Source: Isoperla grammatica (lineage: Eukaryota > Arthropoda > Insecta > Plecoptera > Perlodidae). From it: 64,000 nt of DNA. Under the pieces are notes generated by a model. It was given only the letters and a program-made list of their open reading frames with translations. It was not told where the DNA came from and did not search any database. Both the position numbers and the translations under genes were made by a program. Below, piece by piece: positions 28,101-49,100 of the stretch. The stretch is taken from positions 6,192,973 to 6,256,972 of the forward strand of contig OX246744.1 in NCBI GenBank assembly GCA_945910005.1, given 5' to 3'. How positions within the stretch are numbered: position 1 is the stretch's first letter; each line of letters opens with the position of its first letter.

Positions 28101-31100
28101 AATATTTGTAAGTATCTAGACTCACAAAGATGCGTGTGGAAATTTGGCGGGTTAGCCTAAAGTTGATAGAAATAGAATGAATAATAAAAGTTTAAACCAT
28201 TTCTACACATATTATCTAGAATGCAACAAATTTACTTGATTATTCCCTACCTGCACGAACCACCGCGGACAGAAGCAGTGAGGGGGAAAAGAGGGTGGGG
28301 GGAAACCCGAAGCAGATCGCAAGAAGGGGTATGCAGAGCGAGGAGGGATCATAAATGGAAGTTTCGGCGGCAGGTGGTAAGATGTGATCTGGGTAGGTTT
28401 GGATTTGTTGAAAGAACGGTTAAGAAATGGAATGAGTTACCCGAGGAGGTTGTTGAGTGTGAATCAGTAAGGGAATTTAGAAATAGAATGAGGGATATGA
28501 AGTGATGAGGGTGGGTGGGTGGGAGGGAGGTTGGCCGGGACAGGCTGCCACCGGGCAGTTATGGCCCATTAGCAGCCTTGAACTATTTAACATTAACATT
28601 AACAGGCTAGCAGCGAACATTCACCCCCTCGGATGATTGATTAATGGGGCTTAACGTCTCATATTTTCGCAACTATGGCCAATCGAGACGATGAGCGGGT
28701 GATAATGAAGATGAGAAAGATGATGATGAAGAATAAAGCCACATCCGAATCAGATCCATTGTACGTCGCGTGGGTCGTCATACGGGAGTCCAGCAAGGGA
28801 GGGCAGGGCCATGTGGGAGGAGAAATCTTCAGTGGGACAGTGGGGGGGGGGGGGGGGGGGTAGGGTCTCCTTTTGTCGCCTCTTACGACTAGCAGAGTCA
28901 CTCTGGGCCTATTCTACCCCGGGCCGAGACGGGACTCCTTTTAAACTCCCGACCTCGGTTGTCCGTGGTCGGCCTGAACGTTAATCGACTCTCTCCCCCT
29001 CAGATGTCTTGTCCGGCTTCAACGGGACGATATTCGCCTACGGGCAGACGTCCTCGGGCAAGACCCACACTATGGAGGGGGTCATCGGCGACCCGGCCAA
29101 ACAGGGCATCATACCGCGCATCGTCTAAACGTCCCATCCCTATAATCGACTCTCTCCCCCTCAGATGTCTTGTCCGGCTTCAACGGGACGATATTCGCCT
29201 ACGGGCAGACGTCCTCGGGCAAGACCCACACGATGGAGGGGGTCATCGGCGACCCCGCCAAACAGGGCATCATACCGCGCATCGTCTACGACATCTTCAA
29301 CCACATCTACGCGATGGAAGAGAACCTCGAGTTCCACATCAAGGTCTCCTACTACGAGATCTACATGGACAAGATCAGAGACTTGCTCGACGTTTCAAAG
29401 GTAAATAGCCTATCTTCTTCTTCTTCTTCTCAAATGCCCACATTTGGCTATTATGCCATCATGCTGGATCTGATCAACCAGTAGACACGCTTCTTTCTCC
29501 ACCCTCTTCATGCCGCTCGGCATTGCGTCACGTTCACCTGCCAGTTTCGGACATACAAACAGGTGGCTCCTATCCTGCTCCCCATTTCCACACAGCTATT
29601 TATTAGCCCATTTATTTATTAGTATTAAAACTCTAGAAGCAGTCAGTCATGTCACCATGAACATTTGTCTTTCTATATGCTTACATTTAATTACCGGTAT
29701 TTAAGTATTGCATCCAACGTTTTCTGGAACTTTTGTATTCTGTTGTTGGGTAACGCATAAATAAATAAATAAATAAATATGTAAGATTATAAGTCTTTCG
29801 TGGTACGATCGTATGCACGTAAATTTGACAGCGAGGATTGATAGTTATCAATTAGACATTACTAATTAATTCCCCCAAGCATTCAACCATCTTATTTAAT
29901 ATCTAATTTAATATTAATATTAGGCCTAATTATTATTATTATTATTATTAATTATTAATATTATTAGGCTATTAATATTTATTATTAATATTTATTATTA
30001 ATATTATTATTAATATTATTATTAATATTATTCTAATTTAATTTTTAATATAGACTTAAAACCTACACTGGCATTGCCAACTACCTTAGGCCTAGTCTTA
30101 CTAAAAAACAAAAATGAATAGCACCTGTAGCTTTTTATCTGCTAGGTATGTAGGCCTATTTATTTCATGTAACCCATTTTTCATTTCAGGTACTTATTCT
30201 GTGTGTAGGCCTAGTAATGCTCTCTCACTTTTTTATTTTCTTATTTAGACATATTTTGTATCCTACTATCCTACCTTATACATTCTTTATTATCTAGTAT
30301 TAGGAAATGACGATGTCCATATTTGTACAATGTATAAATGAATCGATTAATAAAGAACTTGAACTTGAATATTAAAAGTATAAATCTAGATCATTTTTGT
30401 CTTTGGTATTGTAAGTTTGAGATCGTCGTGTGGACGGATAATTATAACGCGTGTGTGCGCGTGCGTTTCTCTCCGTCCCAGGTGAATCTCAGCGTGCACG
30501 AAGACAAGAACCGGGTACCGTTTGTGAAGGGCGCGACGGAGCGATTCGTGTCGAGTCCAGACGAGGTCTTCGAGGTGATCGAGGAGGGAAAGTCCAACAG
30601 GCACATCGCCGTCACCAGTAAGTCGCTCGCTACGACGTTACTACTAGGGATGTGCGGGTACCCGAAAAACGGGTATTTTTCGGGTAGCAAAATTTACCCG
30701 AGGTCTGGTCGGGCCGTAAATTATGCCCGAAAAAATCGGGTCGGGTAGTACTAACCCACTTTTTAGGTTATGGTTGTTAAAAATTGTGAATTTCAAGACC
30801 AAGCTGCAAGACTGGGAAGCTTGGGAGGAACTGATATTTATATGAGGATGTCTTACCTTCTATCTTACTTTATTATTATTTCCTAATTATACTTATTTTA
30901 AATTTACTTTCCATACAATGGGGCAGTGTAGGTGAATAACAGTATTTCAGGATGTATTCTGACCATTTCTGACAGTACTCATATAAAAAAGATGGCGACC
31001 ATAATGCCAGAAACCCACTGCCTTCTTGGCAGAAATATAGCTAAATAGGCCTATGGCGGGAAATTCAAATGTTCAAATACTTTGAAAATTCGAATCTGGC

Positions 31101-46100: not shown

Positions 46101-49100
46101 AAATCAAAAACAATCGAGATTTCGTGTTATTTCGCTCTTAAATACAAATTTCGATGTTATGACTGGAAATTGACGGATTTCGCGAATTTTCGCGGTGAAA
46201 TTTTGATGTTTTTAAGGTGCCTATCAACAGATATACACTTTGTTTATCTCCCCCTTCTTTATCAACACTTTTCGCAATTTCGCGGTCCGCGAAAAACAAA
46301 CACCTCTAGTTATAATGTTTCGCCTATCGTGGTTACAGTCAGACCAACGAGCGGAGGGAGCAGGCACGCAAGGATTTCAAGGGATTGGAGGACACTGTCT
46401 ACTGTCGTGTTATAATGTTCGTCTATCGTGGTTGGTTACAGTCAGACCAACGAGCGGAGGGAGCAGGCACGCAAGGACCTCAAGGGATTGGAGGACACTG
46501 TCTACTGTCGTGTTATAATGTTGGTCTATCGTGGTTACAGTCAGACCAACGAGCGGAGGGAGCAGGCACGCAAGGGATTGGAGGACACTGTCTACTGTCG
46601 TGTGTTATAATGTTCGTCTATCGTGGTTGGTTACAGTCAGACCAACGAGCGGAGGGAGCAGGCACGCAAGGGATTGGAGGACACTGTCTACTGTCGTGTG
46701 TTATAATGTTCGTCTATCGTGATTGATTACAGTCAGACCAACGAGCGGAGGGAGCAGGCACGCAAGGACCTCAAGGGATTGGAGGACACTGTCTACTGTC
46801 GTGTTATAATGTTCGTCTATCGTGATTGATTACAGTCAGACCAACGAGCGGAGGGAGCAGGCACGCAAGGACCTCAAGGGATTGGAGGACACTGTCTACT
46901 GTCGTGTTATAATGTTGGTCTATCGTGGTTACAGTCAGACCAACGAGCGGAGGGAGCAGGCACGCAAGGACCTCAAGGGATTGGAGGACACTGTCTACTG
47001 TCGTGTTATAATGTTCGCCTATCGTGGTTGGTTACAGTCAGACCAACGAGCGGAGGGAGCAGGCACGCAAGGACCTCAAGGGATTGGAGGACACCGTCTA
47101 CTGTCGTGTTATAATGTTCGTCTATCGTGATTGATTACAGTCAGACCAACGAGCGGAGGGAGCAGGCACGCAAGGACCTCAAGGGATTGGAGGACACCGT
47201 CTACTGTCGTGTTATAATGTTTCGTCTTATCGTGATTGATTACAGTCAGACCAACGAGCGGAGGGAGCAGGCACGCAAGGACCTCAAGGGATTGGAGGAC
47301 ACCGTCTACTGTCGTGTTATAATGTTCGTCTATCGTGATTGGTTACAGTCAGACCAACGAGCGGAGGGAGCAGGCACGCAAGGACCTCAAGGGATTGGAG
47401 GACACTGTCTACTGTCGTGTTATAATGTTCGTCTATCGTGATTGGTTACAGTCAGACCAACGAGCGGAGGGAGCAGGCACGCAAGGACCTCAAGGGATTG
47501 GAGGACACTGTCGCCAAGGAGCTGCAGACCCTGCACAGCCTTCGCAGGATGTTCGTCCAGGACCTGCAGGCCAGGATCAAGAAGGTGAGCGAGCGTCGGA
47601 AAACGTTGTGCATTTCGCTATAGTACATAGTTGGTTTCCGTTCGACCGTATTCGCTCGTCAATTGCATTTTTTCGGAATTAGGCTACATGCGGACAAGGG
47701 AGTTCACCGTCTTGATAACTCGAGTGTAAAACACACTTCGATATTATTAATTATTATTACATTATAATTATATTAATATTTTATATTAATTGGTGGGAAG
47801 AAGTGATAGCAATGGACGTGGAAAGAAGAAATGCAACTTGGGAAGAGGTCAATCAGGAACGATGGTGGGAAGGAAGTTAACATGAGGGAAGCGTCAGGCA
47901 TGGCCAGCCGGCTTCGATGTACCTAGGGGCCAGAATATGATGGGATTAATTTCCTATCCCATACCCGACTTCATTGTTGGACACAGGGAGCAGATATAAA
48001 AAAATTAATTAAATTAATTAATTATATTAATAATATAATTATATTTTTACATTATTATTATATTATAATTATTATTACAGTCTGTGAACGCCGAGGACAC
48101 AGAAGACGATGGCGGTTCGCTAGCGCAAAAACAGAAGATCAGTTTCCTCGAGAACAATCTGGACCAACTAACCAAGGTACGTCGTAGACTTCAATTATTA
48201 TGTATACTAATATTAATTAGCGAATTTCGATATAATGTATCGACATCTAAAATTTTAAAGTTCTCTATTCTTGTAAGATTTTGTAGGGTTGAACATTTTT
48301 GTTAAAATTTAACAAAATTCTAACATCAGACAATGTAGGTATCGACCTCGACATACAAAAAAAGATTTTGTTTTAGGGTACATTTTTCTTTAATTCTTTT
48401 ATTTAAAAAAATCTAAATCCAGACGGTTTATAAACAAAATACAAGGTTTCTGGAAAAAGATTGCCGGTTTAGATTTTTAAAAATTCTGTTCTTAGGATTC
48501 TTTAATTTAAAAAAATCTCTCCAGTCAGTGCTTCAACAAATAATATCAAAGTTTCTAAAAAAAAAAAAGATTTCGTTCAGGCGTGAATTTTTTTTTAAAT
48601 TTCGTCTTCAATTTGTCTGTATTATTCAGACACTATCGGCGTGTTAACATGGACAAAATAAAATACACAGTAGGACTTACACACTTAAAATTTTTTCGAT
48701 GTTATTCAACATCACGTCACGCAATATTTCGACAGCTGCTCTGCTGTCGAAAAAATCTAAAAAAAAAAAAGGATCGAAAAAATTCTAACTGTAAGTCCTA
48801 CAGTGTTTTTATTTCATATTTTCCAGTTAACTAAAGTGTTTTTTATAATTAACGTGGACGTGTCGCTTGTTTTCCCTCAGGTACACAAGCAGCTGGTGCG
48901 TGACAACGCGGACCTGCGTTGTGAGCTGCCCAAGCTCGAGAAGCGACTGCGAGCGACGATGGAGCGGGTCAAAGCTCTCGAGTCGGCGCTCAAGGACGCC
49001 AAGGAGGGCGCGATGAAGGACCGGAAGAGATACCAGTACGAGGTGGATCGGATCAAGGAGGCCGTGAGTCACATTATGTTGCTATCGTTTCTAGGTTATC

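Follow-up and report, generated by a model that had tools for sequence, protein, structure and literature searches.

The stretch of the Isoperla grammatica genome analysed here (64,000 nucleotides, hereafter the window; assembly GCA_945910005.1, contig OX246744.1, positions 6,192,973 to 6,256,972) carries on its + strand, at 24963..51628, the gene Khc for the heavy chain of kinesin-1, in which exons 4, 9 and 16 are preceded by tandem copies of their own 3' splice site and exon start (1, 14 and 11 extra copies, respectively). According to the exon model, the gene is intact: its 20 exons, with GT-AG introns, join into one open frame of 1009 amino acids (aa), and the identification is supported by protein matches. 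Residues 12-974 match the solved kinesin-1 heavy chain structure 8rhb, which we take to be human KIF5B, and a protein search gave 89% identity with the KHC of Periplaneta. For a 32-row tree, the window protein was combined with 31 of the 120 best homologues (out of 7981 matches of the general search). It clusters with Polyneoptera: the 11 rows of its group, which is supported at 100/99, include cockroaches, a termite, Orthoptera and stick insects. The GC content of Khc is 58% in exons and 40% in introns, and the shortest intron has 87 nt.

Extra copies of exon edges were sought with 18-mers of 19 exon starts and 19 exon ends, allowing up to three mismatches. Multiple or exact extra copies were found only at the starts of exons 4, 9 and 16 and at the end of exon 10. 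The four other matches all carry three mismatches, two of them being one and the same pair (exon 10 end/exon 15 start), and look like chance. As a yardstick, random 18-mers had a copy with at most three mismatches in the window in 104 of 300 cases when drawn from the gene and in 35 of 300 when drawn from exon interiors, so that a lone weak edge match means little. The 10-11 in-register matches at exons 9 and 16 do not come from such chance recurrence. For exon 9, the mismatch limit of the scan yields 10 copies and the acceptor listing counts all 14. Including the true site, exons 4, 9 and 16 have 2, 15 and 12 acceptors, with the AG kept in all of them, and the best scores of their arrays in Tandem Repeats Finder (TRF) are 600, 2190 and 2028. 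An earlier note, made from the letters of this DNA, had reported extra edge copies at exons 4, 9, 10 and 16 (1, 14, 1 and 11), and its exon numbers, positions and counts agree with the acceptor listing, TRF and the edge scan.

The simplest case is exon 4, whose productive copy (29165..29400, +) is given by the exon model and the reading frame. The partial copy upstream of it (28982..29127, +) consists of the end of intron 3 and the first 124 nt of the exon and is 98.6% identical to 29143-29288; the two acceptors lie at 29004 and 29165, 161 bp apart. Across the 124 exon nt there are two differences, both at third codon positions, and the copy continues into an in-frame TAA. The junction is a blunt join with a 10-nt difference.

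The array before exon 9 (37321..38636, +), delimited by TRF, the acceptor listing and unit alignment, comprises 14 upstream units of 86 or 93 bp and the true exon start. The productive exon (38624..38866, +) is set by the exon model, homologues and the reading frame, and the 15 acceptors lie within 37385-38624, spaced by 86 or 93 bp. Each unit joins 64 (or 71) nt of intron to 22 nt of exon, the latter being exon bases 1-52 with 30 nt deleted between two CCGAG motifs. All array units share this internal deletion relative to the true exon; homologues retain the longer form (EPLEAVTP...PPE), which marks the last copy as the ancestral state and the array units as derived. Variants among the units (the 93-bp length, a G/A site) are, by eye, shared block-wise, a pattern typical of unequal exchange. 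It can be added that a dispersed repeat occurs at 34724-35441 (intron 7), at 36822-37311 (intron 8) and, upstream of Khc, at 7650-8188 (-), and that the exon 9 array begins about 10 bp past the end of the intron 8 copy.

In the case of exon 16 (47452..47584, +; exon model and reading frame), the array (46309..47512, +; TRF, acceptor listing and unit alignment) is built of 11 upstream units of 96-105 bp and the true exon start, with 12 acceptors within 46339-47452. The unit consists of 61 nt of exon, a 7-nt filler, TACTGTC, which repeats the adjacent ACTGTC, and the intron end. The array is abutted by an inserted element of 695 bp (45614..46308, or 45606-46316 with its target duplication; no strand assigned) that has the terminal inverted repeat TAGAGGTGTTTGT and an 8-bp target duplication, GTTATAAT, and ends 30 bp upstream of the first acceptor copy. 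By its hallmarks, we presume it to be hAT-like.

Exon 10 (39669..39875, +; exon model) differs from these three. Its last 18 nt and its donor (GAACTCATGCAGAAGCAG|GTGGGTCAC) recur once, 496 bp downstream (40354..40380, +), in a match of 23 exact nt. The first copy is preceded by the exon and the second is followed by different intron sequence, with an insert of about 470 bp between them. Within the insert lies a dispersed repeat in common with 47871-48017; the portion of the repeat that matches (40049-40200) reaches neither copy. Since the copies bracket an insert, this is not a tandem duplication, and exon 10 was taken off the list: the sequences on either side of the copy do not correspond to a tandem unit, nor to a clean target-site duplication, and the locus points to a distinct event in which a duplicated donor brackets an insert. 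Of the four exon-edge duplications named in the earlier note, exons 4, 9 and 16 therefore stand as tandem ones, and exon 10 does not stand as a tandem or acceptor case.

As that note had also described, the copies at exons 4, 9 and 16 hold the acceptor with 5' coding bases and end short of the end of the exon. They reach into it for 124 of 236 nt (exon 4), 52 of 243 nt minus the deleted 30 (exon 9) and 61 of 133 nt (exon 16). The exon's own donor is present in no unit, which rules out whole-exon duplication and mutually exclusive exons. The intron part of every unit contains a pyrimidine stretch, the AG and a branch-point-like motif, recognised by eye as CTAAC at exon 9 and as TTAAT/TATAAT at exons 4 and 16. 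Because the units are unrelated and their junctions differ (filler at exon 16; a blunt join and the CCGAG deletion at exon 9; a blunt join and the 10-nt difference at exon 4), the three arrays probably arose independently, as had been proposed. Filler and microhomology are marks left by end-joining, and such an origin would fit the exon 16 filler and the exon 9 deletion with its CCGAG microhomology; the duplication junctions proper at exons 4 and 9 appear blunt.

The coding outcome of each acceptor was derived by pairing it with the true donor. A premature stop follows from every one of the 26 upstream acceptors, and the full 1009 aa are obtained from the last acceptor at all three exons. In-frame extension of the exons from upstream sites was thereby rejected, the stop being met even where the added length is a multiple of three. 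Site strength as the cause of last-copy use was rejected as well: before exon 9, 12 of the 14 upstream acceptors equal or exceed the last one in score, and the corresponding counts are 7 of 11 for exon 16 and 1 of 1 for exon 4. Since the last acceptor is equalled or outscored upstream, position must favour it if Khc works. It has been described that, where flanking introns are large, the splice sites nearest to each other across the exon are preferred (PMC9225289). The introns around exons 9 (2851 nt before and 802 nt after) and 16 (2293 and 496 nt) are long and thus provide this very setting. From the sequence we infer that the last acceptor of each row is the one used in splicing. Rows of 12-15 near-identical acceptors constitute a natural test of how the spliceosome chooses among the first AG, the strongest site and the site nearest across the exon. 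The arrays are likely tolerated because every upstream acceptor ends in a premature stop and the full open reading frame (ORF) survives. The suggestion that such introns are "tolerated or selected" is thus likely right in its first part; selection is not borne out, the last acceptor being no stronger than most of the others.

In our opinion, the locus is probably the product of three independent short duplications, two of which grew into minisatellites, tolerated as exon definition favours the last acceptor. The founders would have been tandem duplications of 161 bp (exon 4), about 116 bp, later cut to 86 (exon 9), and 103 bp (exon 16), each copying all the elements of a 3' splice site (branch-point-like motif, pyrimidine stretch and AG) together with the first exon bases. 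Those of exons 9 and 16 would then have expanded through unequal exchange or slippage. Presumably, the spliceosome matches the true donor to whichever acceptor lies nearest across the exon, which puts the last copy to use and leaves the upstream acceptors as near-silent decoys; occasional use of a decoy would yield an mRNA with a premature stop. Selection would spare a duplication only if it leaves a self-contained last acceptor. This would account for the fact that each of the three begins at the branch-point-like motif or further upstream and ends within the exon.

Several points weigh against this explanation. A strict first-AG model predicts that the upstream copies should win. Moreover, of the seven arrays that TRF detects in Khc (minimum period 25, minimum score 100; five further such loci lie outside the gene), three span an acceptor, the other four being intronic and away from borders. 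In a Monte Carlo analysis with randomly placed founder units, which is post hoc, limited to one gene and based on founder lengths of our own choice, 0.39 acceptor-spanning arrays were expected (P = 0.0039), or 0.27 (P = 0.0015) with crude survival rules; for arrays on any exon border, the expectations were 0.77 (P = 0.030) and 0.68 (P = 0.019). Three acceptor arrays in one gene exceed random placement, and plain neutrality alone does not explain them. Finally, the units are less variable in their exon parts than in their intron parts, with substitutions in 5 of 83 versus 16 of 103 columns, a contrast that speaks mildly against pure neutrality and is inflated by the ragged intron alignment of exon 16. 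This count covers copies 1-14 of exon 9 (intron 9/71, exon 2/22) and copies 1-11 of exon 16 (intron 7/32, exon 3/61), with the last copies excluded and, for exon 16, only those intron columns that are filled in at least 9 of the 11 copies.

GC-rich exon edges in AT-rich surroundings may be a cause of the border excess, for example by breaking or stalling more often, and short tandem duplication would then be biased to exon borders in this genome. Such a bias is compatible with the explanation favoured above, and we retain it as a tentative possibility. It accords with the 3 of 7 arrays on acceptors against the 0.27-0.39 expected and with a unit GC content of 60% (exons 4 and 9) and 52% (exon 16) against 40% in introns; however, this evidence comes from one gene and is post hoc, and the four remaining arrays lie off the borders. 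Hairpin-driven instability of the units found no support, as none of the six strand folds of the three units fell below a z of -1.5 (range from -1.49 to +1.59). The lower variation of exon parts would be expected if multi-acceptor introns were maintained by selection as a tunable switch sending part of the transcript to decay, for which the premature stop from 26 of 26 upstream acceptors is the outcome needed, and the AG is kept in all copies. Nevertheless, AG retention tells little at such low divergence, the variation contrast consists of raw counts resting partly on that ragged alignment, and the units of exons 9 and 16 are unrelated and lie in unrelated parts of the protein, all of which makes this switch very unlikely. 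An assembly artefact, i.e., concatenated haplotypes or read errors, appears extremely unlikely. The exon 4 duplication (146 bp, 98.6%) could be read as a haplotype join, but the 7-bp, 9-bp and single-base variants of the units in block patterns, the junction filler and the shared internal deletion are as in real minisatellites.

Another possibility is that the exon 9 array functions as a micro-exon nursery, with copy 13 being a real 42-nt cassette exon in the linker after the neck coil and other units perhaps serving as in-frame micro-exons of 12-21 nt, separated by introns of 65-81 nt. The candidate (38445..38486, +) has an acceptor, a frame of 14 residues, stop-free and of phase 0 at both ends, and the donor GAG|GTGAGC, which arose by one extra substitution (C-to-T) and lies in former intron, 42 nt in. 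On a donor matrix trained on the 19 introns of Khc itself, so that real sites are the training set, this donor scores 10.4, compared with a median of 9.6 for the real donors. Only 5 of the 1732 non-real GT dinucleotides of Khc reach at least 9.5, two of them in duplicated edges: that of copy 13 and that of the second exon 10 copy (11.5, versus 9.7 for the true exon 10 donor). By score alone, a usable donor is present in the upstream units of exon 9, best in copy 13: each of the 14 offers donor-like sites in frame at 12, 18 and 21 nt (6.5-6.6, 6.0-7.8 and 3.1, respectively). On the same matrix, no donor-like site above 3.0 was found in the upstream units of exon 16, and no GT above 1 in the upstream copy of exon 4. 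What speaks for the nursery is thus the presence of in-frame donor-like sites in 14 of 14 units, with the strong GAG|GTGAGC in copy 13 alone, and the phase 0 of the insertion point at exon 9. Exons of 12-21 nt are generally poorly recognised, which counts against it, and the implied introns of 65-81 nt fall below the shortest Khc intron. A parallel is offered by the potato RdRp gene, which gained an intron likewise, its new donor being supplied by the exonic portion of the upstream copy (PMC4974935).

Protein comparisons argue in the opposite direction. VSKVF is absent from the 240 listed homologues, all of which come from other species, and PAEVK occurs in one listed homologue (P0006), inside an ordinary 49-aa linker without a repeat. 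No linker insert of the exon 9 type was seen in the 111 homologues, again proteins of other species, in which the hinge pattern was matched (out of 120 listed, the remaining 9 being left out), an absence that does not bear on the mRNA of the species itself. A protein query with two EPAEVKV copies revealed no evident transcript fragments of the species itself in the best 120 of 552 matches, among which the top identity was 79% over 95% of the query and reached up to 92% over about half of it, below what is expected within a species. Taking into account also that the donor matrix comes from 19 introns only and was trained on the real sites, we consider the nursery unlikely. Its strongest form, in which the C-to-T change has just created an in-frame 42-nt cassette exon and array length sets the number of EPAEVKV-type micro-exons that can join the flexible linker, seems from the sequence decidedly unlikely. 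If true, it would mean that a hypermutable intron array alters the linker length of a conserved motor.

Several other features of the window were recorded. The exon 7 acceptor of Khc is directly followed by a strong donor-like CAG|GTACGG (34446-34464; score 10.0), which has the look of a recursive splice point. Outside the gene, a large minisatellite occupies 5792-7006 (85 bp x 14.3, 97%), with a diverged unit inverted at 8343-8438. The palindrome TAGGCCTA occurs 31 times in the whole 64 kb versus about 0.8 expected from base composition. On the - strand, a pair of ORFs at 58177-61021, named by eye, encodes RCC1-like repeats (59519-61021) and a SIAH-like product (58177-58800), apparently a single two-exon gene. 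The ORF at 56662-57159 resembles, by eye, the end of the reverse transcriptase protein of a non-LTR retrotransposon.

Like the Khc arrays, tandem exon duplication multiplies exon sequence locally inside one gene; the arrays differ from it in that no unit has the exon's own donor and none is a whole exon. In human CBS, a 31-bp variable number of tandem repeats (VNTR) sits at the exon 13-intron 13 border. The title of a report likewise assigns a 31-bp VNTR to CBS, and the gene is further known for a 68-bp duplication of the intron 7/exon 8 junction (844ins68), with which splicing strongly favours the more distal site and normal mRNA is made; the paper on this duplication says "donor", although this junction has an acceptor. 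Like 844ins68, exons 4, 9 and 16 of Khc have head-to-tail copies with the intron end, the AG and the exon start. Unlike CBS, where one extra copy exists as a human polymorphism and splicing has been studied, exons 9 and 16 carry 14 and 11 extra copies, known from genomic sequence.

The view that the Khc arrays may be an undescribed phenomenon is too strong, as border duplications, intron gain from them and border minisatellites are in print (CBS; PMC4974935 and PMC2812944). In potato RdRp, an intron was gained by a tandem duplication across the intron-exon boundary, with RNA-seq proof, and the unit, as in Khc, consists of the 3' intron end (branch site, pyrimidine tract and AG) and the exon start (PMC4974935). 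In that account, the donor in the exonic part of the copy makes the new intron, which could happen at copy 13 of Khc exon 9; a single duplication is concerned there, in contrast to 14 units seen in DNA here. In human genes of segmental duplications, minisatellites at exon-intron boundaries can create novel introns, and the study concerned reports 162 alignments before manual inspection and 27 intron modifications after it (PMC2812944). Exons 9 and 16 of Khc similarly carry long-unit arrays across the border, with a pattern of unequal exchange visible by eye; those human arrays, as described there, have mean 30-bp units repeated four times in recent paralogues, and in Khc, a conserved gene, units of 86-105 bp occur 12-15 times over. 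Among the matches listed from the open-access literature, none describes an acceptor array of many copies. The Khc arrays may capture the birth of introns or exons by partial duplication midway, with many comparable units. Compared with these systems, the Khc case is mostly one of ordinary short duplications falling on exon borders, and what is distinctive is the occurrence of three border duplications in one conserved gene, with rows of 12 and 15 acceptors.

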